Below, piece by piece: positions 8 through 20,450 of a stretch of 64,000 bases of DNA (the stretch's first letter is position 1; each line of letters begins with the position of its first letter). Both the position numbers and the translations under genes were made by a program. The notes under the pieces were generated by a model. That model did not search any database and was not told the DNA's origin. It saw only the letters and a list, made by a program, of their open reading frames with translations. The DNA comes from Micromonospora ureilytica (lineage in GTDB: Bacteria; Actinomycetota; Actinomycetes; Mycobacteriales; Micromonosporaceae), in NCBI RefSeq assembly GCF_015751765.1, contig NZ_JADOTX010000001.1, positions 3,658,001 to 3,722,000 of the forward strand, written 5' to 3'.

Positions 8-391
8 GTGGACCGGCATCAACTGATCGCTCTGCTGGCGGGCGGGGGCAGCGCATATGCGATGTGTCGAGATGCGCTCCACGACGGCGCAGACTTCACC
101 ATCGCGAACGGTGCCATGCCCGCAACCCACTTCGCCCGGATCTATGACCGCCGCAAGCGGCACTGCCAAGAGCGTGGTATCGCCACGCTCGGCTTCCGTC
201 AAGGCGTCGAACGTCTGCAAAATGCGAGGAATCACGCTGTACGCCTGGGCTGGGTCAAGGTCGCGAATCCGGACTACCACTTCCAACTCTTCCTGACCGA
301 AGACCTGTCTGCGGTGATTGCCTGCATCGGAGTTGACCAAGCGCATCAGGTTCGCCGAGACGACGGCCCGGAACTGACCTCTTCGGTGTGA
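8..391 (+). CDS. Hypothetical protein, possibly continuing upstream
   Basis: This is a 127-codon reading frame opening with GTG seven bases from the window edge, so the true start may lie outside. The product has no signal peptide, membrane segment or family motif that I recognise. It is mixed basic and acidic, with a central Arg-rich stretch around residues 45-75. Its last codons and TGA stop fall inside the 17-bp sequence shared with tRNA-Val, so its C-terminus may have been created or altered by recombination there. It could equally be an old fragment. The function is unknown. Confidence 0.45.
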   Translation: MDRHQLIALLAGGGSAYAMCRDALHDGADFTIANGAMPATHFARIYDRRKRHCQERGIATLGFRQGVERLQNARNHAVRLGWVKVANPDYHFQLFLTEDLSAVIACIGVDQAHQVRRDDGPELTSSV

Positions 392-392
392 A
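376..392. other. Candidate left attachment core (17 bp of tRNA-Val)
   Basis: The sequence GACCTCTTCGGTGTGAA is identical, in the same orientation, to 20404-20420 inside the tRNA-Val(CAC) gene, covering part of the anticodon arm and loop. A chance 17-bp identity at this distance is very unlikely, and tRNA anticodon loops are known tyrosine-recombinase targets. The flank to the left does not continue into a tRNA 3' half, so the original chromosomal junction is either degraded or replaced by another insertion. Confidence 0.6.
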
Positions 393-665
393 ACAGGACG
401 CCGTAGTGACTCTGACCTAGGGAAACGTAAAGCCGCAGGTAGGGGTGGGTGCAGTTGAGCGCCGTTCGATGCCGTTGGACGCAGTTCAAGGCCGTTCAGG
501 GCATCCCGCTGTTCCCAACCTGCTCCCCTAGGTCGGGCTCGCACCGCGCCGTCGGCCGATCGTGAGCTGCCGGTCCAATGCTTTCGTTGGCGACAGCGCT
601 GGCTCCCACAGCCGCATCGGACGATCGGAACACGCGCACCACAGCCGCGCCTCGTCAGCGGCAGA
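390..665. repeat. Long direct repeat, copy 1 (left-end type)
   Basis: This imperfect 276-bp direct repeat matches 11840-12121, starting at GAAACAGGACGCC and ending at GTCAGCGGCAGA. Identity is high by eye but was not computed. It contains several GCCGTT steps (about 450-500) and the motif TTCCCAACCTGCTCCCC near 512-528. It lies directly inside the candidate left attachment core. Its position and short internal repeats suggest recombinase arm sites, which is inference. No gene is visible here. Confidence 0.75.
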
Positions 666-686
666 TGTGCACGTTGGGTTGACGCC

Positions 687-986
687 GTGACATTGCGGAT
701 GAGCGGGATGTTTGCCCAGTCCGGACGGGATGCGAGGCTGAACGCGTGGCTTCCGGATCGACGTACACGTGGACAACCCCGGCTACCCGGCGGCTTGGTA
801 CGCACCTTGAACGCGTCGGTGTATCCAGAGACCGGCGGAGTGTCACGGTACCGGGCTCACCCTGCGCAGGTCGATGACATCCTCGCCCAGGTGAAGATTG
901 TCGCCGGGTTTCTCGACTCGTCGACCCCGGAGGCCCGCCAGTCCCTCAGCCGGCGCGACGCCCGTCCGCCGGTAACGGCCGTATGA
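687..986 (+). CDS. Doubtful hypothetical protein upstream of the AEC transporter
   Basis: This 99-codon frame has its TGA overlapping the ATG of the next gene (ATGA), which is typical of translational coupling and is the main argument for it. The second half (about residues 55-95) reads like real protein, but the first half is Arg-rich and low in coding character. It may be a degenerate gene whose 5' part is frameshifted. No family is recognised. Confidence 0.3.
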   Translation: MTLRMSGMFAQSGRDARLNAWLPDRRTRGQPRLPGGLVRTLNASVYPETGGVSRYRAHPAQVDDILAQVKIVAGFLDSSTPEARQSLSRRDARPPVTAV

Positions 987-1906
987 GTTTGGTGTCGGCG
1001 TTCGCACCGATCTGGATCCTTACCGCGGTCGGCTACGCGGCCTGTCGTTGGGGCCTGCTGGGCGAGGAGGTGGCGTCGGTGCTCGGCCGGTTCGTGTTTC
1101 AACTCGCGATGCCGTCCGCCCTGTTCCTAGCCCTGTCCCGAATGCCGCTTTCCGGGTTCGCCGGCCGCTCGCTGCTCGCCTTTGGCGTGAGCACGGCCGC
1201 GGTCGTCGGGCTCGGGTGGGTCGGCGCGAGCTGGCTGTTCGGTCGCGAGCCCGGCGAACGGCCGATCTGGGGCATGGCCGCCGGGTACGTAAACTCGGCG
1301 AACCTCGGCATCCCGATCGCAACGCAGATTCTCGGCAACGTGTCGTTCCTGGCGGAGGTGGTGCTGCTGCAGGTGCTGGTGGTGACGCCCGTGATCCTGG
1401 TCGCCCTGGACCGGCACAGCGACCCGGCCGGGCGGGTACGGGTCCGCCGTATCGCCTCCCTGCCAGTACGCAACCCTGTGATCCTGGCGTCCCTGCTCGG
1501 TGTCGCGTGCTCGGCAACCGGCCTGCATCTGCCGTCGATGGCCGACGCGTCGCTCACCCTGCTGTCGGGCTCCGCCGTTCCGGCCGCCCTGGTCGCGCTC
1601 GGCGCGTCGATGCACGGCCCGGCGCCGTCCCGGGCCGAACCGGCCGCGCTGGCCGGGCTGGCCGTGATCACCGCGCTGAAGCTCGTCACACAGCCGGTCA
1701 TCGCGTACGCGGCCGGGCTGGCCTTGCACCTATCCGCGCCGCAGTTGCTCGCCGTGGTGGTGTGCGCAGGCCTGCCGACAGCGCAGAACACGTTCATCTT
1801 CGGCCAGGAGTACGGCGTCGGCGAGGCGGTTGCCAACCGGGCGGTGGTGGTGACCACGACGCTGTCGCTGGCCACCCTGGCCGCGGCGGTGGCGCTGCTC
1901 GGGTAG
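983..1906 (+). CDS. AEC-family (auxin efflux carrier-like) transporter
   Basis: This 307-residue integral membrane protein belongs to the AEC/BART superfamily of secondary carriers, which export or exchange small organic anions. About ten hydrophobic segments are arranged as two five-helix halves separated by a short polar loop near residues 145-165. Typical features include the NSANLGIP sequence near residue 107, the matching small-residue-rich stretch in the second half, and the GLPTAQNTFIFGQ segment near residue 265, a hallmark of the second half. Length is normal for the family. The ATG overlaps the stop of the preceding short frame. The substrate cannot be assigned. It lies in the first candidate integrated element. 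Confidence 0.85.
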   Translation: MSLVSAFAPIWILTAVGYAACRWGLLGEEVASVLGRFVFQLAMPSALFLALSRMPLSGFAGRSLLAFGVSTAAVVGLGWVGASWLFGREPGERPIWGMAAGYVNSANLGIPIATQILGNVSFLAEVVLLQVLVVTPVILVALDRHSDPAGRVRVRRIASLPVRNPVILASLLGVACSATGLHLPSMADASLTLLSGSAVPAALVALGASMHGPAPSRAEPAALAGLAVITALKLVTQPVIAYAAGLALHLSAPQLLAVVVCAGLPTAQNTFIFGQEYGVGEAVANRAVVVTTTLSLATLAAAVALLG

Positions 1907-2409
1907 GTCCGTCAGCTGACTCGACCAGCAATCCTGGTGAGTCACGCCGACCATGGCGCTGGCCGGCCAGGTCTGCAGCCACGATCATCGCCTGATGATG
2001 CGGCGGGCGAACTCGATGCCGTAGTGGCCGTGAGAGTGTACGGACGGCTGGTGCACCACGTCGGCGGCAGATCAGTGCGTCGGGTGAGCGGTCGCAGCCA
2101 CCCCTTCTTCGGTTCAGCGAACAAATGCCCTACGACTGTTGCCAACCCGCCGACGCCGGCGAGCGAAATGGTGTTCGTCAGCGTCGACGACATGGCCTAC
2201 CGTCGTCGGATGGCCTTCCCTAGGCACCCGCCATTGCCGTCCGACGTCGACCCGTTCGACACCGAGAAATGCGGACGGCACTACCTCCTCGACGGCAACG
2301 CACACACTTCCCCGGGCGCACCGATACGGACTCGTCCGAAGGCACCGCTCCGGATTCCGATGGCGGCATTGTCCCCGACGCCAAGGCAGAGGAGTTCGCC
2401 CGCTGGTAG
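1907..2409. other. No intact gene; degenerate coding remnants
   Basis: The stretch after the transporter has frames that read protein-like for short runs and then shift. One run is around 2150-2330 (a segment with DVDPFDTEKCGRHYLL). Another is around 2330-2409, an Asp/Ser-rich tail ending FARW-stop. I see no start with a ribosome-binding site and no intact product. It looks like decayed gene debris next to the transposase remnant. Confidence 0.5.
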
Positions 2410-2634
2410 ACGACCGGTCGAACGCAGGCCGCGCACCTGGACGTCCAGGTCGAGGCGTTCCGCAACCGGCCTCTCGATGCCGCCCACTACCCGTTCGTGC
2501 GAATGGACGCGTTGACGATAAAGGTCCGCGAGCACGGCCGGAGGGTCAGCGTTCAAGCGCTCGTCGCGGTCGGGGTCAATGAACCGCAACCTGCCGCCCT
2601 CGTCTGGGGTGACCTTCTCCCCAACCGGCTTTAG
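2410..2634 (+). pseudogene. IS256 (Mutator)-family transposase fragment
   Basis: The frame encodes about 65 residues including LDVQVEAFRNRPLD, HYPFVRMDALTIKVRE and VSVQALVAVGVN. These match the conserved DDE-region start of IS256/Mutator transposases, in which the Asp of the V-D-A-L motif is catalytic. It is closed by a stop (2407-2409) just upstream and ends at TAG 2632-2634 after a non-homologous tail, so only a small central piece remains. No terminal inverted repeats were found. It is a relic and cannot be active. Confidence 0.75.
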
Positions 2635-2714: not shown

Positions 2715-3962
2715 TCAGAGGCGGCCGGCCGGTTCCGGGCGCGCGTCCGGCTTGATCAGCGCCGGGAGCTTGCGCTCGAATCGGTTGAAGAGATTCATCG
2801 ACGGCAGGATGGGCCGGATGCCCGTGGCCTGCTGGGCGATCTGGGCGCCCCAGACCGAGGCCCGCAGGCGCTGGTTCGGGGTGCCGTGGTGGCTGGGGTC
2901 GTCGAAGAAGCAGTCGCCGACCTCGTAGAACGTCTGTTGCGCCTGGTGGATTTGGACGCCGTTGAAGTTGAGCCCGCGCGGGTGGGTGACGAAGTAGGTG
3001 CCGAAGCCGTCGGCCATCAGTTCGGTGCGGCGGGTCGCCTCGGCGCCGGTCAGCGGGCTGTCGAACAGGCCCTGTTCGAATTGAACGTGGTGGGCCATCT
3101 CGTGGGCGAGGATCGCGCGCGCGCCGGCTGTTCCCAGTCCGAGTGCGCCGATAGCGGTGAGCATGCCCTCGCCGAAGACGACCTTGTCCGGGACGTCACG
3201 CAGCAGCGGGTCGGCCTCACCCTCGGCGGTGAAGGCGAAGGCGTTCAGGGTGAAGATCGGGTTGCGTCCTCCGTCGAGCGCGGGGACGGAGCCGATGATG
3301 GCCATGATCTCGGCGGCGGCTGCTGCCGCCTGATCCTCGTCCAGTCCCCAGATGAAGGCGACCATCCGAGCTACTCGCGTGGGATCCTGCAGCATGTCGT
3401 TCTGCATGGCCATGAGCTTGACGTCGAACAGGTTGACGTCCCAGAACTGCTGTGCGTCCTTGAAGGTCCGCTTCAACGTGCTCTTGTGGCTGGCGGGTAG
3501 GCCGTAGTCCGCCTCGTTGTTGGGCTGGCCGTAGATGAGCGCGTCGTAGGCCGCGTAGTCCAGGACGCCAAAGATGAGCAGGACCAGCAGGGTGTCCAGG
3601 TCGACGCCTTCGAGCAGGCCCAGTGTGTACGTGGTGAACTGGGTGTCCTGGCACTGGTAGAGCGACGGGTCGATCGCATCCGCGACCAACTCCTGCGCGA
3701 GGGACGGATTCAGGCCCATCCTCTCCCGCTTGTCGGCAAGCATGGCCTGCCAGTTGTCCGGTAGCAGCGCGGCGATGGCGGCGATGCGTGCCTGGGTCTC
3801 CGGGTCCGCGGCGGCGCGGGCGGTCGCGAAGTCGAACCGCGGCGGGGCGACGATGCCCCCGCCTGCGCTGACGCTCGCGGGGGGCGCCGCGTGGACGGGC
3901 CCCGGGGTCAGTCCCAGGCCGAGGACGATTGCCGCCAGCAGTGCGGGTATCCGTCGCCTCAT
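2715..3962 (-). CDS. Secreted zinc metallopeptidase-like protein (HExxH)
   Basis: The product is about 415 residues. I chose the start at 3962 because AGGAG lies just upstream and the N-terminus then forms a clean signal peptide (MRRR, a hydrophobic core, cleavage after VHA near residue 26). The frame is open 31 codons further but without signal-like sequence. HEMAHH near residue 287 is a zincin HExxH motif, with ELMADGFG about 25-30 residues later as a likely glutamate ligand region. The protein is probably exported and acts outside the cell. A hydrophobic stretch around residue 160 could be a core helix. The family is not resolved and the substrate is unknown. It sits alone in the first island. 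Confidence 0.75.
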   Translation of the reverse strand: MRRRIPALLAAIVLGLGLTPGPVHAAPPASVSAGGGIVAPPRFDFATARAAADPETQARIAAIAALLPDNWQAMLADKRERMGLNPSLAQELVADAIDPSLYQCQDTQFTTYTLGLLEGVDLDTLLVLLIFGVLDYAAYDALIYGQPNNEADYGLPASHKSTLKRTFKDAQQFWDVNLFDVKLMAMQNDMLQDPTRVARMVAFIWGLDEDQAAAAAAEIMAIIGSVPALDGGRNPIFTLNAFAFTAEGEADPLLRDVPDKVVFGEGMLTAIGALGLGTAGARAILAHEMAHHVQFEQGLFDSPLTGAEATRRTELMADGFGTYFVTHPRGLNFNGVQIHQAQQTFYEVGDCFFDDPSHHGTPNQRLRASVWGAQIAQQATGIRPILPSMNLFNRFERKLPALIKPDARPEPAGRL

Positions 3963-4344
3963 GCACGCTCCTCGTTGTCCTGCGAGCCTCAGGTGGTAGG
4001 CCTCGATCAACCATTTCGTAGCGGCATTGAAACACATGGGTGGATAGTTGCGCACCCTCCGAAATCAGCTCGTCCCGCAGTCGAAGAGTGCGGGCACTCA
4101 CACCTCCGGCCGCAGATAGAGCTGGGCGGCTTACTCAGGCAGTACGGCTGCATCTCTCGATCTCGCAGCGGGGATGGATCCCACTGACCGCCAGTAAAGC
4201 CGGAGACTGGAGACACAGATAAGCGGCTGCGCCGTCCGGTAGACCGTTCAGGTCGTGGGCGCCGTCTTGGTTCGACAGTTTCTTCCGTCGGCATCACATC
4301 GCCTTGCCGAGGTGAACGAAGCAGGCGAGGCACGCCTTGCACGC
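3963..4344. other. Intergenic stretch, no gene seen
   Basis: This is the upstream region of the metallopeptidase, followed by sequence out to the RHS remnant. Frames in all directions are short and biased toward Arg/Ser, as expected of non-coding high-GC DNA. No convincing promoter or RNA gene was identified. Confidence 0.4.
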
Positions 4345-4806
4345 CGCAGATGCGGTGACCCCCTCATCGTCGGTTGCCGTGGCACCCACGCCCACGGATG
4401 TGGAGGTGGGTCGGCCGTACGTGTCGTAGGCGTCGATTCGGGAGTCGTAGCGGTTGCCGTTGACGAAACGCGGTGCGGCTGTGATCTTGCCCTTGCCGTT
4501 GGGCAGAGTGTCGTACACCCAGTTGCTACGCAGAGCGCCGGTGACGGAGCCGTCGCGCATGCTGATCTTGCGGCCGAGCTCGTCGTAGGTGTAGGCCGTG
4601 GTAGCGGTGCCCGTGCCGGTGCCGACTTGAATTTTGGTGGTTCCGATGTTGCCGGCGGCGTCGTAGGTGGTTTCGGTAGTGCCCTTGTCGGGGTCGATGG
4701 CCATGATCGGGCGGCCGCGCAGGTCGTAGGTGGAGGACCAGACGTTGGCGCCGGTCGCATCTGTGAGGGTCTTGGCCTGTCCGAGCAGGGTGTAGGACCG
4801 CGACAG
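4345..4806 (-). pseudogene. RHS/YD-repeat protein fragment
   Basis: About 150 codons carry clear YD-repeat signatures: YDLRGRPIMAIDPDKG, TTYDAAGN, YTYDELGRK and YDTYGRPTS. These repeats build the shell of RHS-type polymorphic toxins and wall proteins, which are normally over 1000 residues, so this is a small internal piece. There is no start, export signal or toxin tip. Its upstream end abuts the LtrA fragment in another frame at about 4792-4810, giving a chimeric junction. The last 30 codons no longer look like repeats. Confidence 0.7.
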
Positions 4807-5149
4807 CTGCCGCAGCAACCCCGAGGGGCGGCAGGCCGACCATGATCGGCGCCATGGCCGCGAGGACGAAGATCCCGATCGGCCGCGGCCAGGACACCCG
4901 CGCGAAGGCCACGTACTCGAATACCGAGCGCCCGGCGAGGTAGAGCGCAGGCCCACCGAGGATGGCCCCGACCCAGGCGGGTTTCGCGTCTCCGGATGGA
5001 TCTAGGAGGACGAGTTCGGAGCCGGCTGAGCTGGCGAGGATGCCGGACACCATGAGCAGGTGCGCGAACTCGGCCAACCGACCGAGCCGGGCAGGATCGG
5101 CGGATGCCGCGATGGCCTCGCCCAGGATTTGGCCGGCTCGATCGTGCTC
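4807..5149 (-). pseudogene. LtrA-family membrane protein C-terminal fragment
   Basis: The frame reads ARLGRLAEFAHLLMVSGI, then AILGGPALYLAGRSVFEY, FARVSWPRPIGIF and a final hydrophobic run. This matches the C-terminal third of low-temperature-requirement protein A (LtrA), a polytopic membrane protein of unclear role usually near 380 residues. The preceding part is degraded or out of frame and the 3' end is replaced by RHS sequence. The assignment rests on remembered family sequence and is fairly secure for the fragment. Confidence 0.6.
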
Positions 5150-5460
5150 GGCCACCAGCCACCCGCCACCGACACCCAGCACTGGCTCGACACGGCAGTG
5201 TCGCTGCTGATGTATCGCGTCATCTACGAGGTGAGCGACCCGGTCGTCGACCTCGGCCCCCCCACCCGGCGACGACGACGATCGCAAAGCTTGGCACCGA
5301 AGCCTCACCTCGGACCTCCGCAAGACGCGGTACTGACCTAGCGGCCTGGCGGTGCTGCAACCGTTGGACACGGTCGAGGCCGCTCGTGGCCGCAGTCCTC
5401 CGCGCGATGGCGCATTTCCCGGCGCCCGTCGCCCGGATGCTGCGCCGGTAACACGTGAAG

Positions 5461-5493
5461 CGGCCCCGCCTTCCTCCGGGGAACGCGGGGCCG
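5461..5493. terminator. Hairpin terminator-like structure
   Basis: CGGCCCCGC and GCGGGGCCG form a 9-bp GC-rich stem with a 15-base loop, followed on the plus strand by TGTTGCCTTTT. An outer CACGTGA/TCACGTG pair extends the structure. It lies 75 bp beyond the stop of the minus-strand secreted protein gene. Confidence 0.6.
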
Positions 5494-5568
5494 TGTTGCC
5501 TTTTCTCACGTGATGCACTCCGCCGGCTAAGTGCGGCCGGGCGCTACCCGTGGTAGGAGGTTGAGTGG

Positions 5569-5967
5569 CTAGGGGCAGTGGGACGCATGTGATGCAGAGA
5601 TCTCGATCCGGATGACGTTGGGCCATGACGAGCTGAAGGGCCGGTCCTGCCAGGGGCAGAACGGGAGTATTCCCCCGTCGGCGAACTTCACGACTCCGGA
5701 CCAACTGCCTGTGGAAAGCCCGTAGCCCTTTGAGTTCAGGTTGTAACCTCCGCTACACAGTCGGCTCCAGTCGAGAATCTCCGTGCGGGCCGAGTTCCAG
5801 TAGTAGTAGTGCAGGGCCCGGCTCTCCGACTGACACGACTGGGCCTCGAATGAGGCTGCGGGAGCTGCCGACGCGGCCGGCGCCGACGCGACGGTGAGCC
5901 CAAAGGCGGCGGTAATCGCCACCGCGATGGCGGCCAAACGCGTCGATAGAGATTTACTGAGTTGCAT
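5569..5967 (-). CDS. Small secreted protein of unknown function
   Basis: The product is a 132-residue exported protein. The start at 5967 follows GGGGGATC with good spacing and yields a classical signal peptide (MQLSKS, Ala/Val-rich core, ASAPAASA near residue 34). The mature part is about 95 residues, rich in Ser, Tyr, Trp and Gly, with four cysteines, suggesting a small disulfide-bonded beta-rich extracellular protein. No enzyme motif is recognised. The upstream 780 bp contain no gene, so it is probably a single-gene unit ending near the hairpin at 5461-5493. Confidence 0.65.
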   Translation of the reverse strand: MQLSKSLSTRLAAIAVAITAAFGLTVASAPAASAAPAASFEAQSCQSESRALHYYYWNSARTEILDWSRLCSGGYNLNSKGYGLSTGSWSGVVKFADGGILPFCPWQDRPFSSSWPNVIRIEISASHASHCP

Positions 5968-11708: not shown

Positions 11709-11839
11709 CACCCAATCTGCTCCCAGTTGCAAGGTCGGACCAACCGACGGCTCCTTACCGCCTTGACCTGCGCACACTCCCCTACCAGGCGACATAGAGC
11801 TTCGCCGACTGCTGCGCAGAACCACGGAGCACTCCGCGG
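11709..11839. other. Degenerate internal end-junction of tandem elements
   Basis: CACCCAATCTGCTCCCA at 11709-11725 resembles the motif at 20287-20306. Both are followed by roughly 100 bp containing TTGACCTGC and then a core position. In the right end that core is the tRNA-Val 17-mer; here it is only a weakly similar CTCCGCGGGAA at about 11831-11842, immediately before direct-repeat copy 2. The order (right-end motif, about 100 bp, left-end repeat) is what a fused boundary between two tandem elements would give. Confidence 0.45.
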
Positions 11840-12121
11840 GAAACAGGACGCCGCACCGGCTCTGACCTGCGATAACGTGGAGCCGCAGGCAGGGGTCAGT
11901 GCAGTTGAGCGCCGTTCGATGCCGTTGGACGCAGTTCACGGCCGTTCAGGGCACCCCGCTGCTCCCAACCTGCTCCCCCAACCCGGCTCGCACCGGCTCG
12001 CCGACCGCTGACCGCTCGTAAACTGCCGGCCAGTGCTTTGGCTGGCACCAGCGCTGCCCCCTTAGCCGCATCGGTTGATCGGGAAGTACGCTCACGATCG
12101 CCGCGCATTGTCAGCGGCAGA
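11840..12121. repeat. Long direct repeat, copy 2 (left-end type)
   Basis: This 282-bp sequence is homologous to 390-665 over its whole length, with a few small insertions or deletions. It shares the GCCGTT steps and the CTCCCAACCTGCTCCCC motif (11962-11978). It contains no gene. Its homology to the sequence just inside the left attachment core suggests it is the left end of a second, related element. Confidence 0.75.
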
Positions 12122-12234
12122 AGAGTGTGTCGACGGCTCCACACTCTCGCGGCCGCTTGTGATCAGTGTGCAACGACGACGGTGCGTACGACGCCATCAG
12201 CAGTCTCGGATGCTCGGTCGAAAGCCTCACCAGA

Positions 12235-12609
12235 TCACACTCGGTAGTACTGCACGACGCAGAACTCGTTGTCCTCCGGGTCGGTCATGACGAGGACTGC
12301 GCCCTCTTGGTAGTCATGCCGTTCACCTGTCCACCGCCCGCCCAACATCCCGATCCGATCGACCGCTTCGTCAACGTCGGTAACGGCGATGTCGAGATGT
12401 AGTCGCGTCTTGCCGGCCTTGGGCTCCGGGACCGGCTGGAATGTCAGCACCGGGCCGCCCCCAGCGACAGTGACGCGCCGCCAGCCGGGAAGAGACTCCG
12501 TCACGCGTCCTCCAAGCACCACGGACCAGAAGTCGGCCAGTCGCTGCGGATCCCGGCAGTCGACCGTGACTCCGGCAAGTCGGCCCAGTGTCTCCACGAC
12601 ACCGACCAT
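12235..12609 (-). CDS. VOC-family (glyoxalase-like) protein
   Basis: The product is a 124-residue protein of the vicinal-oxygen-chelate fold, with the usual two beta-alpha-beta-beta-beta halves: LAGVTVDCRDPQRLADFW at the start, LHLDIAVTDVDEAVDR in the middle, and VMTDPEDNEFCVVQ at the end. This resembles the Glyoxalase_6-like group common in actinomycetes, whose members act as isomerases, dioxygenases or drug-binding proteins. I start at ATG 12609; ATG 12648 is possible. The reaction cannot be named. It lies downstream of the GNAT gene on the same strand, and a small shared unit is likely. Confidence 0.75.
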   Translation of the reverse strand: MVGVVETLGRLAGVTVDCRDPQRLADFWSVVLGGRVTESLPGWRRVTVAGGGPVLTFQPVPEPKAGKTRLHLDIAVTDVDEAVDRIGMLGGRWTGERHDYQEGAVLVMTDPEDNEFCVVQYYRV

Positions 12610-12733
12610 AGCGACGATGTGCAGCCCGCTCCACTGGGGCGCACTCATCTCGGCTATGAGCGGACGTCGCCGCTGGCCGAGTTGCTGGCGACACAGGCGG
12701 ACGAGCCGGTACCCCCGGCGATTCCGGTGCAAC

Positions 12734-13270
12734 TCAACTGGACGGCGTGACCGGGGACCGCATGCCGAGCCACTGGTCGGCGTCCCAGGCATGGAACCTC
12801 TCTACCTCGGTAAACCCCAGCTTCGCCGCGAGGCGCATCGAGCCGACGTTGGCGGTCTGGGTGGCGAGCACCACCGGCCCACCGGGAAGGACATGGTCGA
12901 GCCAGCCGAGTGCCGCCGCGCACGCCTCGACGGCATACCCGAGTCCCCACGCCCGCGGCAGAAACAGGTAACCGAGATCGACCTTCCCCATAGCAGACGG
13001 GCGGTGCCTGGCCGGTCTCCTGAGCAGGATCTGGCCGATCATCATTCCGTCGAGATCGACGACGAAACTTCCCGGCCACTGCTCGGGCACCTCGGGCAGT
13101 TCGCGCTCAAGCACGTCGCGCGGGCGCGGACCGCCGAGATAGGTATGCACCTCTGGAGAGGCAAGCAGCTCGATGAACGCCGCACGGTCCCGGGCCTCGG
13201 TCTCACGAAGCACGAGCCTCTCAGTCCTGATCGGCTCAGGCGGCCAAGCCACAGATCCGAGATCTTGCAT
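12734..13270 (-). CDS. GNAT-family N-acetyltransferase (RimJ/RimL type)
   Basis: This 178-residue protein opens with IRTERLVLRETEARDR, typical of RimJ/RimL-like acetyltransferases. It has the central beta-strand pair around VDLGYLFLPRAWGLGYA, where the loop after LFLP corresponds to the acetyl-CoA pyrophosphate site. It ends with NVGSMRLAAKLGFTEVERF, the usual C-terminal motif. Members acetylate protein N-termini, antibiotics or small amines; the substrate is unknown here. It is upstream of and on the same strand as the VOC gene (gap about 125 bp). In an island with a phosphotransferase-like gene, a detoxification role is conceivable but unproven. Confidence 0.85.
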   Translation of the reverse strand: MQDLGSVAWPPEPIRTERLVLRETEARDRAAFIELLASPEVHTYLGGPRPRDVLERELPEVPEQWPGSFVVDLDGMMIGQILLRRPARHRPSAMGKVDLGYLFLPRAWGLGYAVEACAAALGWLDHVLPGGPVVLATQTANVGSMRLAAKLGFTEVERFHAWDADQWLGMRSPVTPSS

Positions 13271-13395
13271 CCGGGCACGCTAGCAGAACGTCCAACGCCC
13301 CAACTCGATCTAAGTTCCGGGGCCACAACGTTAGGACCAGATCGACGTCTGCGGCCACGCCCAGCTGCCCTACCCGTGCCCCCGGAGACCGCACC

Positions 13396-13604
13396 ATGAA
13401 CTCCCACATCAACGATGACCCTGCCATCCCCGATCCCGAAGAACGCGCCGCACGTAATACCGCTCTCTTCAGAGACAACATCGGAACCGGCTTCTGGGTG
13501 ACGACGGCCGTCCCGCACCCTGGCCCGACGACATCGACGAGTGGCAACAGCCCGCCACCACCAACCCGTGGCACTCCTGCCCGGAGACCAGGTCAATTCC
13601 ATGA
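13396..13604 (+). pseudogene. Frameshifted small gene
   Basis: ATG at 13396 opens a good frame (IPDPEERAARNTALFRDN, then GTGFW). After about codon 37 (near 13500) the sensible sequence continues in another frame (GRPAPWPDDIDEWQQPATT...) to TGA 13602-13604. A single-base change near 13495-13505 would restore one product of about 69 residues. The family is not named with certainty. Confidence 0.5.
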
Positions 13605-13624
13605 GCCGAACCCAGGCCAATTAG

Positions 13625-13864
13625 ATGAGCGCCCACACCGCCCTGCCCCGGCTGTGTGCTGAGGGCGCCACCGTGATCTGGACCAGGGCGCGGCGGGACT
13701 CGGACCTGACACCAGCAGTACGGGAGTGGCTTCGGGATGCCGGCTTCGTGGAGCAGGCATTCCACGCTCCGGACGACGTTCGATTCTCTGTCGGCGTGCA
13801 CCGGTTCGAAACTCCGCCCCAGCCTTTGGATCCTGCGGGAAGCCTCTTCACGTTCCTGCACTGA
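13625..13864 (+). pseudogene. C-terminal remnant of a class I SAM-dependent methyltransferase
   Basis: The 79 codons begin at ATG, but the sequence (LCAEGATVIWTRARRD, LTPAVREWLRDAGFVEQAFHAP, VGVHRF) matches the last third of an actinobacterial class I methyltransferase that I remember as about 250 residues. The SAM-binding N-terminal part is missing. It is preceded by a seven-codon frame and the frameshifted gene. It is most likely a truncated relic; a shortened expressed product cannot be excluded. Confidence 0.5.
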
Positions 13865-14204
13865 CAGCAGCTGGCCTGCCAGCCAACGTGCCCGGTTGAG
13901 TTGAAGCGGAACTTGGAGCCGCTACGCCGCCACCAGCGGGAATGGTCCTCGGCACCTGCTCACGGGGCGTCTCAGGCTGCCATCGTTGGTCGCTGGCTGA
14001 CGACGTTTGACAGCGTCTTGTGCCCCCGGTGTGCCCCACGCTGCCAGGATCGGCCAGACGTACCTCAGCCTCGCCCGGCACTGCTTAGCGGTGTCGCCGA
14101 AGTACGGGTGTTCCGGCCGGGCACCCCGCCTTAGCTACGTCGGTGGCTACTCAGCCTGCTGGGAGTCGTCTGATGCATGAGCAGCCGGGCCAACGCCAGC
14201 GTCG
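13865..14204. other. Intergenic, nothing recognised
   Basis: About 340 bp separate the methyltransferase remnant from the prenyltransferase. No start with a ribosome-binding site, no RNA gene and no strong hairpin were seen. Confidence 0.4.
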
Positions 14205-15008
14205 ATGAGGTGGTTTCATTTGATCATGATGCAGCCCTTACGCCGTGCCGCCTACCGGCTCTACGCGCACCGCCTCCGCACGCAGCTCGGCGGTAAGTCG
14301 CTGCCACGGCACGTAGCCATGGTCATGGACGGGAATCGCCGGTGGGCCAGGCAGGCGGGCTTCAATGAGCCCGGAGTCGGCCACCGGTACGGCGCAGAGC
14401 ACATTCACGAGGTACTGGCCTGGTGTGCCGATATGGGCATTCATCACGTCACTCTGTTCGTCGCCTCTGTCGACAACATGCGTAAGCGGGCATCCGAAGA
14501 GGTCGAGAACCTGATGCGGATGATCGAGGAGGTCGTCGCGGAGCCGCTTCTCCGTCCGTCCAACCCCTGGCAGCTCCATTTGGCCGGCCGCGCCGACGTC
14601 CTACCCGACTCGACACGACACGCACTGAAACTCGCGGAAGACGCCACACGTGAACGCGGTGCCGACTTCCACCTCACGGTCGCCATCGGCTACGACGGCC
14701 GCGAGGAGATCGTCAGCGCAGTCCGTTCTCTCCTCGAACAGGAAGCACAGGCGGGCGCCACACTGGAAGACGTCGCGCAGCGGCTAACCGCCGACGATCT
14801 CGCGGCGCACCTGTACACCGGCGGTCAGCCCGACCCTGATCTCGTCATCCGTACCAGCGGAGAACGCCGCATGTCCGGGTTCCTGCTCTGGCAGGCCGCC
14901 TACTCCGAGCTGTACTTCTGCGACGTGTACTGGCCAGGCTTCCGAAAAATTGACTTCCTCCGCGCCCTGCGCTCCTACTCGGCCCGCAGCCGACGATTCG
15001 GAGCGTGA
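14205..15008 (+). CDS. uppS: cis-Prenyltransferase (UPP synthase family)
   Basis: This 267-residue protein belongs to the undecaprenyl-diphosphate synthase family, which chains isopentenyl diphosphate in cis. The signature HVAMVMDGNRRWA (about residues 38-50) holds the catalytic Asp and substrate-binding Arg. YGAEHIHEVLAWC, NMRKRASEEVENL, HLTVAIGYDGREEIV, DPDLVIRTSGERRMSGFLLWQ and AYSELYFCD are the other conserved blocks in normal order. The start is ATG 14205; ATG 14226 or 14229 are alternatives. Housekeeping UppS is normally elsewhere in the genome, so an island copy could be an accessory enzyme making a shorter or secondary-metabolic prenyl chain. No terpene cyclase is adjacent. Confidence 0.85.
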   Translation: MRWFHLIMMQPLRRAAYRLYAHRLRTQLGGKSLPRHVAMVMDGNRRWARQAGFNEPGVGHRYGAEHIHEVLAWCADMGIHHVTLFVASVDNMRKRASEEVENLMRMIEEVVAEPLLRPSNPWQLHLAGRADVLPDSTRHALKLAEDATRERGADFHLTVAIGYDGREEIVSAVRSLLEQEAQAGATLEDVAQRLTADDLAAHLYTGGQPDPDLVIRTSGERRMSGFLLWQAAYSELYFCDVYWPGFRKIDFLRALRSYSARSRRFGA

Positions 15009-15334
15009 CCAGCTCCACATAGCCAGCGATGACCGGCTCGACGCTGTCCACAATCGCGGCGGCGCAGGCTGCGCAGCTTCGTCGGTCATGTGCCCCGTAG
15101 TGATCGACTCATCCGCCCACGGCAGTCACCCCACCACAGCGTCGAGCGAGATCCGGGCCATGATCGCCGTTAGGTCAGCGAGGGGCCGCGTCACCGCCGG
15201 GACCGCACCAATGGGACGGCCGCAACTTCCAGCGGAAATCATCGCTGAAGAGTTGATCTAGGCGAGAAGCTGCGGCAGGCCGCACCTACCATGACCTCAC
15301 ATACGGCTGGAGCTGACCGAAGTGATCACGCGCC
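15009..15334. other. Intergenic between convergent genes, nothing recognised
   Basis: About 325 bp between the prenyltransferase and the convergent membrane gene carry no supported frame or RNA. Confidence 0.35.
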
Positions 15335-16015
15335 TCAGGTAAGCCCCACCTGGTGGCTCAGGATGGCGAGGAGCAGACCGGCGAGGACTCCGATGACGAG
15401 CATCCAACGCTCACGGCGGATGCTCTGCCGCCTCTCGGCATCAGCTCGCTCGGTGGTCTCCTGGTCTCGTTTCAACATTACGTCGGTGCTGCTGAGCGTC
15501 GTTTCGGTCAGCCGCACAGGACGATCCAGGGTGATTCTGAGGCCCGGGGGCACCCCTTCGGAACGCGCTGCGTCGTTGGTCTCTCGCAGGCTCTTCAGGA
15601 TGCTGCCGAGCTCCGCTCGCTGGCGCTTCAGCTCCGTCGTCTCCCGGTGGAAGTGGTCCCGTTCCGACAGGTGGGGATCGAGGTTCTCCCGCTCGACCAG
15701 GGCGTCAACGGCGGCCCGGAAGGCTCTGCGTCGCGTCGAACGGGCCCAAAACAACACGCCGAAGGACGCAAGCCAACCCACGCCCCACAGCAGCGTAGGC
15801 AGGTCGCCGTCCTCGACGGGGAGATACGGATAGTGGTCCGGGAGGATCGTCGTAGCCGTGCTAATCACCCAGCCGTGGAAGGCCACGGACGCGATACTGA
15901 CCGGCACTGTCGCCAGCACGGCCAGGCGGATCAGCGGTCGGCCGGGCTTGCCGCCTGTCCTCACGAACGGAGTGCTCCCGTCCGAGATAGGCGTAGGGCA
16001 AGGCCCAGTAGACAA
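15335..16015 (-). CDS. Membrane protein with coiled-coil region
   Basis: The frame holds 226 codons. Two hydrophobic segments lie near residues 28-55 and 70-90, then a charged, probably coiled-coil stretch from about 95 to 200 (ERDHFHRETTELKRQRAELG...). A final hydrophobic segment (MLVIGVLAGLLLAILSH) lies at the C-terminus. This resembles a membrane-anchored scaffold; no domain is recognised. The first 20 residues are poorly protein-like, so GTG at about 15963 may be the start. Its 5' end overlaps the next frame by up to 155 bases, and the two could be one frameshifted gene. Confidence 0.6.
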   Translation of the reverse strand: MSTGPCPTPISDGSTPFVRTGGKPGRPLIRLAVLATVPVSIASVAFHGWVISTATTILPDHYPYLPVEDGDLPTLLWGVGWLASFGVLFWARSTRRRAFRAAVDALVERENLDPHLSERDHFHRETTELKRQRAELGSILKSLRETNDAARSEGVPPGLRITLDRPVRLTETTLSSTDVMLKRDQETTERADAERRQSIRRERWMLVIGVLAGLLLAILSHQVGLT

Positions 16016-16223
16016 CCACCGCCAGCACGCCGGTCATAACCGACGCGGCACGTCCGGAGAGAGTCAGAGGTGCTAGCAACAGCAGAATCAGTGAGCAGAA
16101 TTCGGCTAGGAACGCCACAGCGAGAGGGTCGGTCCAGGAGTCCACGATGACCCGTCCCCGCTCGTCGCGTCGGGTCCTCGATGGGGAGCGGTGATCGTCC
16201 TTTGACCACGTAACAGACAGCAT
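15861..16223 (-). CDS. Small membrane protein, possibly 5' part of a split gene
   Basis: The frame from ATG 16223 gives about 120 residues. A charged N-terminus (SKDDHRSPSRTRRDERG) is followed by two strong hydrophobic segments (LAEFCSLILLLLAPLTL and TGVLAVVVYWALPYAYLG). After residue 78 or so the sequence becomes Arg/Pro-rich and looks out of frame, exactly where the downstream membrane frame becomes sensible. A single frameshift near 15960 would fuse both into a protein with about five membrane segments. Neither version has a recognised family. Confidence 0.45.
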   Translation of the reverse strand: MLSVTWSKDDHRSPSRTRRDERGRVIVDSWTDPLAVAFLAEFCSLILLLLAPLTLSGRAASVMTGVLAVVVYWALPYAYLGREHSVREDRRQARPTADPPGRAGDSAGQYRVRGLPRLGD

Positions 16224-16401
16224 GTAACACCCGGTCGACCCTCGAGAGAGGCCGCTCTGGCCGAGTTCGGGGGACATGTGCGGGTTGTCCGAGCCGTCCC
16301 CGCCGAGGTTGGGCACGCGCAGACCGCTCGGGACAGTCGGCCCGTCCGTCACAGGAGCGACACCGCACGCACGTGCGCCCCCCGGGTGCAACGTCAGACC
16401 G

Positions 16402-16533
16402 ATGAACTTCTACGGCCCGGCACCAGGTTCCCACTCCGGTGGGGAGTACGTGTACTTAGGAAGAGCTGGGTACGCGCGCCCATCCATCGGTTGCCAGCGA
16501 TGTAGAGGATGGTTCGTATGCGAAGGACACTGA
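16402..16533 (+). CDS. Possible 43-residue Cys-containing protein
   Basis: ATG 16402 opens a short frame, MNFYGPAPGSHSGG then YVYLGRAGYARPSIG, ending CQRCRGWFVCEGH. The three cysteines (CxxCxxxxxC with His) could bind zinc. Composition is protein-like but there is no clear ribosome-binding site. Its end overlaps the start of the secreted protein gene by 16 bases from ATG 16518, so coupling is possible. No family is recognised. Confidence 0.35.
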   Translation: MNFYGPAPGSHSGGEYVYLGRAGYARPSIGCQRCRGWFVCEGH

Positions 16534-17090
16534 TGGTGGTGACGGCCGTGATCCTGGGGCTGGTGTCGGCGAGCGGGCCGGCGGCGGCGCAGCAGCGGCC
16601 ACGGGGGGTCCCTGACCGGGTCATGTTGCAGCCGGACGATCTCGGCGGGGCCGTGCCGGGGCCGGTGGAGGACGGGCTGGTGTGGTCGCTGCTACCCCAG
16701 CCGTGCGCGGACACGCCGGTGCCGCAGCCGGTCGTGAGCCGCACGCAGGCGGCCGATCTCGGTACCCGATTTCGGATCTACGAGAACGTCGCCCGGTACC
16801 GCGGCGATGGGGCACACGCGTACATCACCGAACTGAAGGCGCAGCTCGCCCGGTGCGGAGCGGGCGGCGACGAGGAGGGCTTCGACCCGGTCGCCGAGGA
16901 CCACCTCGGGCCGGACACGGTGCTGTTCCTCGGCACCTACGACGAGGGCGACCGCTACGTCGGCTACGTCGCCGCCGCGGTCGGCCATTACGTGGTGGTG
17001 GTCATGATGTCGGACTCGTACCTGGGGGCGGCCGACCTGACCACGTTGAACGGGCTGGCCAGTGCCGCGATGAGCCGAGCGGCGGCGTGA
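16518..17090 (+). CDS. Secreted protein of unknown function
   Basis: The product is 190 residues. ATG 16518 is preferred over ATG 16509 because AGAGG then lies at a proper distance. MRRTLMVVTAVILGL with AAA near residue 24 is a signal peptide. The mature domain of about 165 residues has two cysteines and alternating beta strands (TVLFLGTYDEGDRYVGYVAAAVGHYVVVVMM), reminiscent of extracellular sensor-like domains of actinobacterial lipoproteins and kinases. That resemblance is loose. A perfect terminator follows 4 bases after the stop, so this is the last gene of its transcript. Confidence 0.7.
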   Translation: MRRTLMVVTAVILGLVSASGPAAAQQRPRGVPDRVMLQPDDLGGAVPGPVEDGLVWSLLPQPCADTPVPQPVVSRTQAADLGTRFRIYENVARYRGDGAHAYITELKAQLARCGAGGDEEGFDPVAEDHLGPDTVLFLGTYDEGDRYVGYVAAAVGHYVVVVMMSDSYLGAADLTTLNGLASAAMSRAAA

Positions 17091-17093
17091 CGC

Positions 17094-17129
17094 GGGAAGG
17101 CCGGCCATCTTGAGAGGGCCGGCCTTCCC
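17094..17129 (+). terminator. Rho-independent-type terminator hairpin
   Basis: GGGAAGGCCGGCC and GGCCGGCCTTCCC are perfect 13-bp arms around a 10-base loop directly after the secreted protein stop. There is no U-run, which is common in high-GC actinomycete terminators. Confidence 0.8.
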
Positions 17130-17514
17130 GGCCACGGGCAGCGTGACCGGGCAATGGGGGTCCCCGGACTCGCGAAGCTGCTGTGTGGCATCGCCCCATA
17201 GGTCGGTGAGACGAGTCGATGGGTGACCGCAGGACTGAGTCGCCGGCTTGGTTCGGCGCCACGCCGGCTCCGGCATCCTGTCATCGACTACACGCGGACG
17301 CCGCCCAACCGCCTCGATGGGGTGCCAGCGCTGACGCCTTCGGGTTCGCCGAAGAGGTCACCGTTCAGGAAGCCCTGCTCAGAGGTTCGCCAGTGGGATC
17401 TGGGTCTCAGCTCGCGGGATCCGTACCGACGCCACCGCGACGACAGCCAGAGCCGTGCACCGATGCGCCCCCCAGAACGCCTGACCCCGTGGTCGAGTTG
17501 CGGTGATTTTGCGG
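17130..17514. other. Intergenic between convergent genes, nothing recognised
   Basis: About 385 bp separate the terminator from the end of the DUF808 gene. Frames here are non-protein-like. No RNA gene or further hairpin was identified. Confidence 0.35.
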
Positions 17515-18570
17515 TCAACCGCGCGGCGCTCGGTCCGCAGGAGCGTCGCGACGCCGAGCTGCACGGTTCGGCGGCGCGGGGATGGTGCCGTCAGCACGAG
17601 TCGTGCCCGCCTCAGTCGCAGCCGCAGCCGCAGCCGCAGCCGCAGCCTTGGATGTGCGGCGGTGGAGCGTGAGAGTCATGACCAGCACGACCAGCCCTCC
17701 GACGATCAGCCCGAGGATCGCACTGGCCACCGTGTTGACGAGCCAGCCGACGAGCCCACCGAGAACACCAGTGGCGTCGTGGGCGGCGACCTCCACGTGG
17801 TGCACGGCCTCGTACAGGAAGTGCAGGTTCAGCTCGTTCGTGCCTAGCAGCAGGATGTGCCCGCCCACCCACAGCATCGCCGCGGTGCCGACTACCGTCA
17901 GCACGGTGAGAACCACCGGCATCGCCCTCACCAGACCGCGGCCGAACGTGGCGACGGCGCCGGAACGTTGCGACAGGCGCAGCCCGGCGTCGTCCATCTT
18001 TACGATCAGGGCCACCACGCCGTACACCAGGACGGTTATGACGACGGCGACGATAGCCAGGATCGCCAGGCGGGACCAGAACGCCTCATCGATCACCTCG
18101 TTAAGGCTGATGACCATGATCTCCGCCGAGAGGATCAGGTCGGTTCGTACCGCCCCAGACACCAGTGTCGTCTCGTCCTGCACCTTTTCCTCGCCCGCGC
18201 CGGAGGCACCGTGATGGGCGATCTTGGCCCACACCTTCTCCGCGCCTTCATAACAGAGGTAGGCGCCGCCGAGCATGAGGATCGGAGTGAGCAGCCAAGG
18301 CACGAACTGACTGAGCAGCAGCACCGCCGGCAGGATGATGAAGAACTTGTTGCGCAGCGACCCCACGGCAATGCGCTTGATAATCGGCAACTCGCGCTCG
18401 GCCGCCAGGCTCCGCACGTACTGCGGCGTGACGGCAGCATCGTCGACGACGACACCCGCAGCCTTGGCGCCGGCCTTCGCGGCGGCCGCCCCGATGTCAT
18501 CGATCGACGCTGCAGCGGCCCGGGCCAGCACCGCCACGTCATCCAGCAGGGCTACGAGTCCACCGGCCAA
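17515..18570 (-). CDS. DUF808 family (YedI-like) membrane protein
   Basis: This 351-residue protein matches DUF808 from its first residues: AGGLVALLDDVAVLARAAA, then DDIGAAAAKAGAKAAGVVVDD and LPIIKRIAVGSLRNKFFII. I place the start at TTG 18570 because family members begin (M)AGGL and an AAGGA lies upstream. The frame runs on upstream only by fusing with transposase debris. Several hydrophobic segments (about residues 75-110, 165-195, 215-245, 275-310) fit the family's multipass topology. The molecular role of DUF808 is unknown. The C-terminal 40 residues contain an alanine run encoded by a CAGCCG repeat and look dispensable. Confidence 0.85.
   Translation of the reverse strand: MAGGLVALLDDVAVLARAAAASIDDIGAAAAKAGAKAAGVVVDDAAVTPQYVRSLAAERELPIIKRIAVGSLRNKFFIILPAVLLLSQFVPWLLTPILMLGGAYLCYEGAEKVWAKIAHHGASGAGEEKVQDETTLVSGAVRTDLILSAEIMVISLNEVIDEAFWSRLAILAIVAVVITVLVYGVVALIVKMDDAGLRLSQRSGAVATFGRGLVRAMPVVLTVLTVVGTAAMLWVGGHILLLGTNELNLHFLYEAVHHVEVAAHDATGVLGGLVGWLVNTVASAILGLIVGGLVVLVMTLTLHRRTSKAAAAAAAAAATEAGTTRADGTIPAPPNRAARRRDAPADRAPRG
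17617..17647. repeat. Hexanucleotide tandem repeat (GCAGCC)n in DUF808 C-terminus
   Basis: About five uninterrupted hexamers encode the poly-alanine run near the C-terminus of the DUF808 protein. In-frame unit changes would lengthen or shorten the run by two alanines without a frameshift. Confidence 0.75.
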
Positions 18571-18619
18571 GGGAGGGTCCTTCCAGGGTTGCGCAAAATT
18601 CGAACTGGACCATTCTCGC

Positions 18620-18960
18620 TCAGGTCCCTGCGTGCGGCACACCACCGCCCGGTCGCTGTCTGGATCGGCTGCGGATGCCCTTGATCGGCGGGATCTTGTC
18701 GACCAGGGGCAGTAGTTGGGTGACGTCGTGACGGTTGCCGCCATCAGGGACACGGCGAGTGGGATGCCGCCCCCGTCGGTGATGGCGTGGTGTTTCGAGC
18801 CTGGCTGCGGCGGTCGACCGGGCTCGGACCTGTTTGGGCCGCCCTTGAACGCCCGAACATACGTGCCGCCGATCACCGCCCCGGGAGATGTCCAACTGCC
18901 CGGCGATGCACTGGATCGACGGAGCGATCGAGTCGATCGGCACGGGCTACGCACTGTCCG
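18620..18960 (-). pseudogene. IS5-family transposase fragment
   Basis: Two frames together read like the DDE region of an IS5-group transposase: GGTYVRAFKGGPNRSEPG and PGSKHHAITDGGGIPLAVSL in one, then GGNRHDVTQLLPLVDKIPPI in the next, with a frameshift near 18730. The N- and C-terminal parts are missing and no terminal repeats were found. It lies just upstream of the DUF808 start and extends its frame artificially. Confidence 0.75.
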
Positions 18961-18989
18961 CCGACGAACTCTGACATCACCATGCGCAG

Positions 18990-19274: not shown

Positions 19275-19359
19275 ACGCAAAGCGATCGTGACTGGGTCCT
19301 CGTCATACGGGCTGTCTGCAAATCCGCCTGAGCCGGGCAAGTAGCAGAGAAGAGAACCG

Positions 19360-20178
19360 ATGCGTAGCGATTGGACGGCGCTGCCGCAGAGTGTCACGGC
19401 AGGGATCGCCGAACGGGTCGGGGGAACCTTAGACGTTGCCCATGCTTCCAGTGGCGACCACGCTGAGATCGCCTCGACGGTGACCGGACCAGCCGGACAG
19501 GTCTTTGTCAAGGCGGGCTCCGGTGAGTTGAGCGTTCGGTCGCTGCGCTACGAACTGGCGGTAACCCGGGCCATCAACCGGCACCCGCCCGCAGTCCTGT
19601 GGCAGTTCGAATCCGATGGCTGGCTGGTGGTGGGGACCGAGCATCTTGCCGGTCCCCACCCCGACCTGTCCCCCGGCAGCACAGATCTCAATTTGCTCCT
19701 AGCCGCACTGACAGCACTTCAGGAGACGCCGGCGCCCGGCGAGACGTGGTTCACCCCGGCAGCCCGGCTCGGGTTCGCGCACCCGGAGATGGACGGCGGG
19801 ACACTTATCCATTCGGATCTCAATCCGGCGAACCTGATCGTGACACCACTCGGCCTACGCATCGTGGACTGGGCGTGGGCAACCAGGGCCGCCGCATGGG
19901 TCGAACTCGCGTTGCTCATCCCATGGCTGATCGGTAGCGGCCACAGCGCCGAGCAGGCAGAAGAGTGGATAACGCAGCTTCCCGCATGGACCGCGACCGA
20001 CCGACAGGTCTTGGACAACTTCGCGCTAAAGAACGCAACGAAGTGGGCGGCCAAGTCCCGACAGAGCACCGAACGCTGGGTACACGACCTCGCAATGTGG
20101 ACCGGCGAGTGGGCGGATCACCGGACCGACGGCCATCAGTCTGTCCGTGAGCCGCGGCGCGGGGGCACCCTCCCGTGA
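19360..20178 (+). CDS. Aminoglycoside-phosphotransferase-like kinase
   Basis: This 272-residue protein has the APH/choline-kinase fold. The key catalytic loop is LIHSDLNPANLI near residues 148-159 (HxDxxxxN with catalytic Asp), followed by LRIVDWAWATRAA near 165-177, the DFG-equivalent metal-binding Asp. The N-lobe (QVFVKAGSGE near 47) supplies the ATP-binding lysine. Length matches the APH-like group. Such proteins phosphorylate antibiotics, sugars or other hydroxyls; resistance function cannot be claimed. It is the last gene before the tRNA and the right boundary of the candidate island. Confidence 0.75.
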   Translation: MRSDWTALPQSVTAGIAERVGGTLDVAHASSGDHAEIASTVTGPAGQVFVKAGSGELSVRSLRYELAVTRAINRHPPAVLWQFESDGWLVVGTEHLAGPHPDLSPGSTDLNLLLAALTALQETPAPGETWFTPAARLGFAHPEMDGGTLIHSDLNPANLIVTPLGLRIVDWAWATRAAAWVELALLIPWLIGSGHSAEQAEEWITQLPAWTATDRQVLDNFALKNATKWAAKSRQSTERWVHDLAMWTGEWADHRTDGHQSVREPRRGGTLP

Positions 20179-20286
20179 TGTGGGCGCCGGTAGCGGTAGG
20201 ACTGCTGGCAGGCCCGCTCGGGACCGCAAATCAGGCCACTCAGCCGGGCAGGTCCAAGAGGGCCCGAACCGAGAACCAGCCGCGCT

Positions 20287-20306
20287 ACTCCCAATCTGCT
20301 CCCAAT
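20287..20306. repeat. Right-end copy of the TCCCAA-CTGCTCCC motif
   Basis: ACTCCCAATCTGCTCCCAAT lies 98 bp inside the tRNA-Val core. Related copies are at 512-528, 11709-11725 and 11962-11978, always near apparent element ends. It is a candidate recombinase arm site, by inference. Confidence 0.5.
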
Positions 20307-20324
20307 GTAAGCCGCACATACGGC

Positions 20325-20358
20325 AAAGCCCGTTACCGATGACTCGGCAACGGGCTTT
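20325..20358. terminator. Bidirectional terminator downstream of tRNA-Val
   Basis: AAAGCCCGTT and AACGGGCTTT form a 10-bp stem with a 14-base loop, ending in TTTT on the plus strand and CTTTG on the minus strand. It terminates the minus-strand tRNA-Val and could also stop plus-strand transcription from the phosphotransferase-like gene. Confidence 0.75.
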
Positions 20359-20378
20359 TGACCTGCACAAACTGAGAG

Positions 20379-20450
20379 TGGGCGATGCTGGTATCGAACC
20401 AGCGACCTCTTCGGTGTGAACGAAGCGCTCTCCCACTGAGCTAATCGCCC
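20379..20450 (-). tRNA. tRNA-Val(CAC)
   Basis: Read on the minus strand, the gene starts GGGCGATTAGCTCAGTGGGA, has a 5-bp anticodon stem CTTCG/CGAAG around TTCACAC (anticodon CAC, valine GUG codon), and a T-arm GCTGGTTCGATACCAGC. The acceptor end ATCGCCC pairs with GGGCGAT, with discriminator A. CCA is not encoded. All arms pair, so it is functional. It is the apparent integration site for the region to its left. Confidence 0.95.
20404..20420. other. Candidate right attachment core inside tRNA-Val
   Basis: This is the second copy of GACCTCTTCGGTGTGAA (first at 376-392). It spans the 3' half of the anticodon stem and the whole anticodon loop of tRNA-Val, a standard sub-site for tyrosine integrases. 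With the left copy it brackets 20 kb. Confidence 0.6.

Follow-up and report, generated by a model that had tools for sequence, protein, structure and literature searches.

The repeat-bracketed region at tRNA-Val(CAC)

We analysed a window of 64,000 nucleotides (C1:3658001-3722000) of the 7.1-Mb chromosome of Micromonospora ureilytica, in which a 20-kb region (376-20420, hereafter the bracket) lies between two copies of a 17-bp direct repeat. The right copy falls inside the gene for tRNA-Val(CAC). The original prediction, made from the sequence alone, described the bracket as one island, apparently free of an integrase. Its repeat, GACCTCTTCGGTGTGAA, is present at 376-392 and 20404-20420 in the same orientation; for a 17-mer with at most two mismatches, 0.02 matches are expected in shuffled sequence. 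The features of the bracket and of its left joint are presented in Table 1. Between 376 and 20378 there are 15 called genes, several of them short or broken; the calls were made by a home-made scorer and the gene limits are approximate. The Pfam families of these genes are those of varied cargo, in agreement with the accessory gene set that had been proposed, and no int, xis, rep or tra gene (integrase, excisionase, replication, conjugation) is among the Pfam matches of the bracket genes given.

Table 1. Features of the bracket and its left joint, with positions in the window
Feature	Position	Strand	Basis and remarks
Gene X, 127 aa	8-391	+	No Pfam family; 3' end bears a core-like joint
Terminal core	376-392	-	386-392 continue the arm/Val-core side; 376-385 recur at the end of gene X in G093
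Arm (family I), terminal array copy	390-666	-	nhmmer
Mem_trans transporter	992-1906	+	1562-2072 matches part of the G130 array (93% identity)
415-aa protein	2715-3962	-	HEMAHH motif (by eye); no Pfam family
Remnants	4294-5704	-	RHS repeat fragment (4294-4818), LtrA fragment (within 4526-5704)
nSTAND1-WD40 protein, 1458 aa	6752-11128	+	Left-unit cargo; Pfam PF20703, PF00400
Type-2 core GTTTCCCGCGGAGTGCTC and right arm	11505-11840	-	Joint between two units
5.9-kb block and site	11509-17408		Matched at 95-96% identity in the tRNA-Leu array of another species (G131)
Arm (family I), internal copy	11840-12125	-	nhmmer; 82% identical to 390-665
Genes of the 5.9-kb block			Glyoxalase 12235-12732; GNAT 12734-13213; UppS-like 14226-15008; 15335-15964 and 16518-17090 (no Pfam family)
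R repeat (right part of the recurring site)	17326-17464	-	nhmmer; here without core
DUF808 membrane-protein module (gene 17515-18570)	17472-18654	-	Pfam PF05661; matches a unit of G130's tRNA-Leu array (94% identity)
APH-family phosphotransferase-like gene	19360-20178	+	Pfam PF01636
P' side repeats TTGGGAGCAGATTGGGAGTAG	20285-20305	-	Downstream of the tRNA, similar ones in the far arm; read in sequence
tRNA-Val(CAC)	20378-20450	-	ARAGORN, Rfam; anticodon-to-3'-end half = attachment region, core 20404-20420

Concerning integrases, Phage_integrase (PF00589) is found at 15 places genome-wide, the nearest about 349 kb from the window, and a hidden Markov model derived from the integrases of this genome gave no match in the bracket among six-frame open reading frames of at least 60 aa. 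The one match of this model in this region, left of the window (L005:18375-18599; labels of this kind are our own handles), was rejected, being a GntR regulator according to Pfam. The predicted debris of IS256 and IS5 was not confirmed by Pfam in the open reading frames given, other frames not being searched; by eye, 18600-18954 looks like a transposase piece. The sequence left of 376 was also checked and, as expected, does not represent the 3' half of a tRNA.

The extent of the variable DNA was determined by comparison with named relatives, nearly all of them Micromonospora. Different content at the tRNA-Val site is seen in five of them (M. noduli ~7 kb, strain H61 ~9 kb, M. trifolii ~8 kb, M. 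parva ~41 kb, M. chokoriensis ~28 kb); a wholly empty site occurs in none of the five. None of the relatives compared is collinear across both 376 and the tRNA, the finding named as refuting in the original prediction. Collinearity resumes at C1:3628657 in M. noduli, within 30 bases of this point in H61 and M. trifolii, and about 0.5 kb further in M. chokoriensis and M. parva. Counted in our own region from the tRNA side, the collinear starts are 50344 (M. noduli), 50346 (H61), 50372 (M. trifolii), 50860 (M. parva) and 50872 (M. chokoriensis); M. noduli additionally shares 294 bases at 48643, 1.7 kb nearer the tRNA. The variable region therefore measures about 49.7 kb (C1:3628657-3678377), and since collinearity begins about 50 kb from the tRNA, position 376 is a joint in the interior of more extensive variable DNA. 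Instead of a single 20-kb island bounded by the repeat, two or more units are stacked inside it, with sites at 376, 11840 and 20404. The G+C content is 66.4% in the bracket, 68.5% in the remaining variable region, 69.8% in the collinear sequence beyond it; the right part of the window has 71.2%.

A recurring arm-core site, its partners and IntVal

The 17-mer at the left end is abutted by a conserved arm of about 280 bp (390-666), which is found at three more places in C1:1.43-1.45 Mb. The internal copy at 11840 continues not into a tRNA half, but into a palindromic core, named type-2, and a conserved right part (R). The terminal bases of the arm, CCTG-TTTCAC, are the exchange point in the comparisons below. 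A third exact genomic copy of the 17-mer is located at C1:1449739-1449755. It is preceded by a sequence that matches window 376-556 at 88% identity, and a displaced tRNA-Val 3' half (95%) comes next; a flank resembling the P' side is found there and in relatives. The order at this place is arm, core, tRNA half and P' side. At a fourth place, C1:1483260, a tRNA-Val half (91%) has a different left flank. We propose that the P' repeats TTGGGAGCAGATTGGGAGTAG and their counterparts in the far arm are putative arm-type sites at which an integrase may bind. The genome also contains a second set of sites at C1:1431240-1483302 (L031, L007, L029, L030), whose blocks share 93-99% identity with arrays of other species; by eye, a gene cluster lies between C1:1449913 and 1483260.

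Of the 160 Micromonospora genomes, 90 gave a match at E 0.001 to a 425-base probe composed of the arm, the type-2 core and the right part; some of these matches are weak or short, and with about four candidates scored per genome the counts of places are lower bounds. Most full-length matches extend over hundreds of bases at 72-87% similarity. In an order-wide set of 298 genomes, with two candidates scored per genome, 29 genomes of the same genus match, and eight others do so at 50 bits or less. All 107 arms of the fetched regions lie on one strand once the regions are oriented, and neighbouring arms are co-oriented in 57 of 57 pairs (29 regions, 24 genomes), which is a head-to-tail arrangement. 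The spacing of the arms has a median of 4.8 kb (range 0.8-24 kb), and two of 81 R-repeat matches are in the opposite orientation. A consensus was built from 44 complete sites; its R part contains a conserved GACCTCTTCGG, a portion of the tRNA core in reverse (R, for example, at window 17326-17464). Three arrays adjoin tRNA-Leu(GAG) (G130, G109 and G131; L201, L204 and L207), where open reading frames beside the tRNA resemble, by eye, C-terminal pieces of serine recombinases.

Other identities were considered for the site. A coding gene was rejected in a rough test, as no long open frame is constant in the 44 copies, and so was a known RNA, as Rfam on 1-21500 gave the tRNA alone. The type-2 core showed no likeness by eye to a half of tRNA-Leu(GAG), though three arrays adjoin that tRNA; a half of tRNA-Glu(UUC) was considered by eye only. 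A literature search of partial coverage recognised no paper on such arrays in Micromonospora.

Looking at the right partners of distinct arms, 63 are type-2, 17 are tRNA-Val halves and two are the Val core only (376 in this window, and G053); 18 arms meet other sequence and six have no clear end. The exchange of partners can be followed at single bases in two pairs. One case is an APH-type module located right of the core: here and in G003 its partner is the tRNA 5' half, in G166 an arm and in L100 a different arm. In 50-base windows, the identity between our sequence and G166 is 46-62% on the left of TTC and 74-96% on its right. In G045 and G109 the gene and arm are shared at 76-96% on the left, whereas right of the core, type-2 in one and a tRNA half in the other, identity is 44-58%. 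A change of partner that is base-sharp at TTCAC, as in these two pairs, is evidence for site-specific recombination at this anticodon-loop sequence.

The joint at 376 was compared with other copies of gene X. The copy in G093 is 83% identical over 413 bases, with similarity extending to window 385, and has GACCTCTTCG at its end without an arm behind it; a further homologue (P0002) is 82% identical over 80% of the query, with a similar C-terminus. As the end of gene X in G093 carries 10 of the 17 bases without an arm, those 10 can be native to gene X. Judged from these alignments, the left end at 376 looks like a recombination joint with gene X, which is in line with the rearranged left end that had been suspected. 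Further core-only joints, in which the tRNA half ends soon after the core, are seen at G012:7472, L096:17074, L098:13641 and G053a:19552 (script region coordinates).

An integrase, here called IntVal, is found directly behind tRNA-Val in several species and contains PF00589 and PF14659; the proteins of five records are mutually 86-94% identical. Intact or broken IntVal (at least 70% identity) lies within 1.5 kb to the right of 8/17 Val-half joints and 0/63 type-2 joints, several of these regions having been fetched because this integrase was seen near an arm. Among regions fetched before IntVal was sought, the counts are 3/10 and 0/52 (Fisher p 0.003); this second tally additionally counts G079, which is the same stretch as L085. 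In G054 and G169 the IntVal gene is open over its full length beside an array end. In G054 it is followed by a gene for a 65-aa helix-turn-helix (HTH) protein (HTH_17) and then by RepSA; M. veneta and G166 have a similar gene order after tRNA-Val, RepSA being named there by likeness to G054 and not by Pfam. The closest relative found in our own genome is 40% identical, in a comparison of the 15 PF00589 places; another comparison scored 11 of 32 candidates. Two other candidates were rejected: L020 as the closest own integrase, with just 25-30% identity to IntVal against about 40% for L012, and the integrase family of G003 as the enzyme of the arrays. The latter matches 81 of 160 genomes at E 1e-40 (nine candidates scored per genome) and none of its matches is in our own genome; no link to arrays was shown.

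Interpretation and alternative explanations

Comparison of sequences establishes the shared sites, their uniform orientation, base-sharp exchange in two pairs, IntVal beside some array ends and the lack of a close IntVal among the candidates compared here. Our preferred reading, which we consider likely, is an orphan tandem array without an integrase, resembling a cis-mobilizable element (CIME) and with a recombined left end; the bracket would be that portion of the ~50-kb composite which lies nearest the tRNA. Small integrase-less elements would have accreted in tandem at an attachment site in the anticodon loop of tRNA-Val(CAC), each unit ending in the conserved arm, with exchange at the last bases CCTG-TTTCAC. 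The candidate enzyme is the tyrosine integrase IntVal, found with small-HTH and RepSA-type genes, which may swap the partner right of TTC between a tRNA half, a type-2 core or a look-alike; the units would move as circles. The terminal site would then have recombined with the core-like 3' end of gene X, so that neither a tRNA half nor an integrase remained on that side. The proposal that the region is an orphan or was moved in trans fits this, as related integrases flank such arrays elsewhere and the closest found here is 40% identical. A tRNA-targeted island would have the 3' part of the tRNA repeated at both ends; here the 17-bp core is present at both, the left copy without the rest of the tRNA half. 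As in such islands, the content of the site differs among relatives, but an own integrase was not found in the bracket. As in CIMEs, there are no integration or transfer genes among the genes tested, and the core sequence at both ends would correspond to predicted attL and attR. For the open question of how integrase-less islands originate and move, this case offers a joining site with its partners and a candidate enzyme, and it could be tested directly in the relatives that have full-length IntVal beside an array end (G054, G169).

Several observations weigh against this reading. Those IntVal elements whose far end is visible (L083, L096 and G166) carry a different arm, GAGAG, and the action of IntVal on family-I arms is for this reason an inference. 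Nine of the 17 Val-half joints are without IntVal; to these come the 18 arms with other right partners and the six without a clear end. Between our sequence and L100, identity in 50-base windows drops from 86% to 44% right of the core, probably due to gaps; the gapped blastn alignment reaches 82% over 1122 bases. Of 172 shared-block endpoints, some of them outside arrays, 35 are close to a site, where 500 random draws average 24.9 and reach 36 at most. The left edge of the 5.9-kb block falls inside R and not at the core.

The last two observations, a weak enrichment and a block edge within R, would also be expected if the sites of ~0.65-0.8 kb were relics of former attachment sites whose only present role is to provide homology by which RecA-dependent exchange shuffles adjacent genes. 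Full-length sites are alike over hundreds of bases and most of the listed array regions have no integrase match, which agrees with such homologous recombination. Against it, the partner exchange is base-sharp at TTCAC in two pairs with no homology on the far side, and arms meet type-2, tRNA half and bare core at the same base; we regard it as unlikely. Lower still we place a series of unrelated islands which landed at tRNA-Val with their own integrases and decayed, their arms being merely similar attP arms. The tRNA-Val gene is indeed a hotspot with several arm types, and intact or broken integrases adjoin it in several species, but the same arm and core arrays also adjoin tRNA-Leu in three genomes and separate arrays have blocks in common at 93-99% identity. 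A 2.17-Mb inversion, with the 376 joint and the orphan tRNA half at C1:1483260 as reciprocal products, would suit the opposite orientation of the two loci, each without the half that the other is missing, but is very improbable: the sequence around 1483260 matches none of 23 gene-X-search loci, and the sequence left of it recurs in M. veneta 2.3 kb beyond the IntVal gene at tRNA-Val and is for that reason probably an element end.

Among known systems, the integron has a single tyrosine recombinase at one end of an array whose units each bring a recombination site. The arrays are similar in that IntVal lies at some array ends and the units each carry a site. As to a recombinase beside a primary site at one array end, IntVal adjoins 8/17 Val-half joints in the genus, partly through targeted fetching, and none in this genome. 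In integrons the recombinase is of the IntI type and the units carry a folded, attC-like single-strand site; IntVal has the Pfam families PF00589 and PF14659, and the type-2 core is palindromic. Unlike integrons, there is a Phage_int_SAM_3 domain in IntVal, the DNA sites are long and two-armed, the units contain one to several genes in both directions, and most array regions examined are without the enzyme. A more speculative extension of the preferred reading, which we offer only tentatively, is an integron-like cassette system evolved from a tRNA-Val integrase of the kind found in actinomycete integrative and conjugative elements (AICEs): IntVal would insert circular arm/type-2 cassettes at a platform of arm and tRNA half, building head-to-tail accessory arrays shared between species. 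If such cassette capture holds true, gene arrays would have a second way of forming outside integrons, one that is tRNA-derived.

CIMEs and tandem accretion, named in PMC3146451 (see also PMC5704250), are among the closest known systems. The likeness is that an attachment sequence is kept, no integrase or transfer genes are found, and elements are stacked beside others. The difference is that here many small units lie head to tail at one genus-wide site. The ssrA islands of Dehalococcoides are tandem downstream of an RNA gene and marked by direct repeats, and 15 of them, without an integration module, were suggested to be cis-mobilizable elements (PMC3146451). Their recombinase is a serine recombinase and their ssrA repeat measures 20 bp, whereas the arrays here have a tyrosine integrase family, a site of ~0.65-0.8 kb with a second, non-tRNA core, and also lie beside another tRNA. 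Tandem AICEs have been reported (PMC3218068), and IntVal in G054, followed by a small HTH gene and RepSA, is similar to AICEs of the pSAM2 type. No such genes were found in the bracket, and none of the IntVal elements, that of G054 included, yielded an identified transfer gene. In PAISt of Streptomyces turgidiscabies, excision is modular, with one internal and two flanking direct repeats and a tyrosine recombinase; PAISt differs in its 8-bp palindrome at bacA and in being a single 674-kb element (PMC4057263).

Cargo, shared blocks and neighbouring genes

Separate arrays share blocks at 93-99% identity (Table 1); in addition, G131 has a piece that matches C1:1445708-1447019 at 99% identity. Of the 198 array genes, 149 were scanned and no Pfam family was found more than four times, a count that shows no cargo theme among these genes. 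A PADLOC search for defence genes among 10 proteins gave one match, on the WD40 part of the 1458-aa protein, whose gene contains a 113-bp internal direct repeat within 10559-10800 (94%). Copies of housekeeping-type enzymes are found in or beside arrays: UppS (14226-15008, Pfam), MetH (L005:9005-12580, Pfam) and ArgRS (L204:12495-14252, by eye); these are possibly spare targets. The variable region left of the window includes MetH-type, GH44 and HSP70-domain genes. It also contains 19 tRNA genes at L004:13734-15609 (C1:3631734-3633609), including a second tRNA-Val(CAC), and M. lupini has a comparable run of tRNA genes at this locus.

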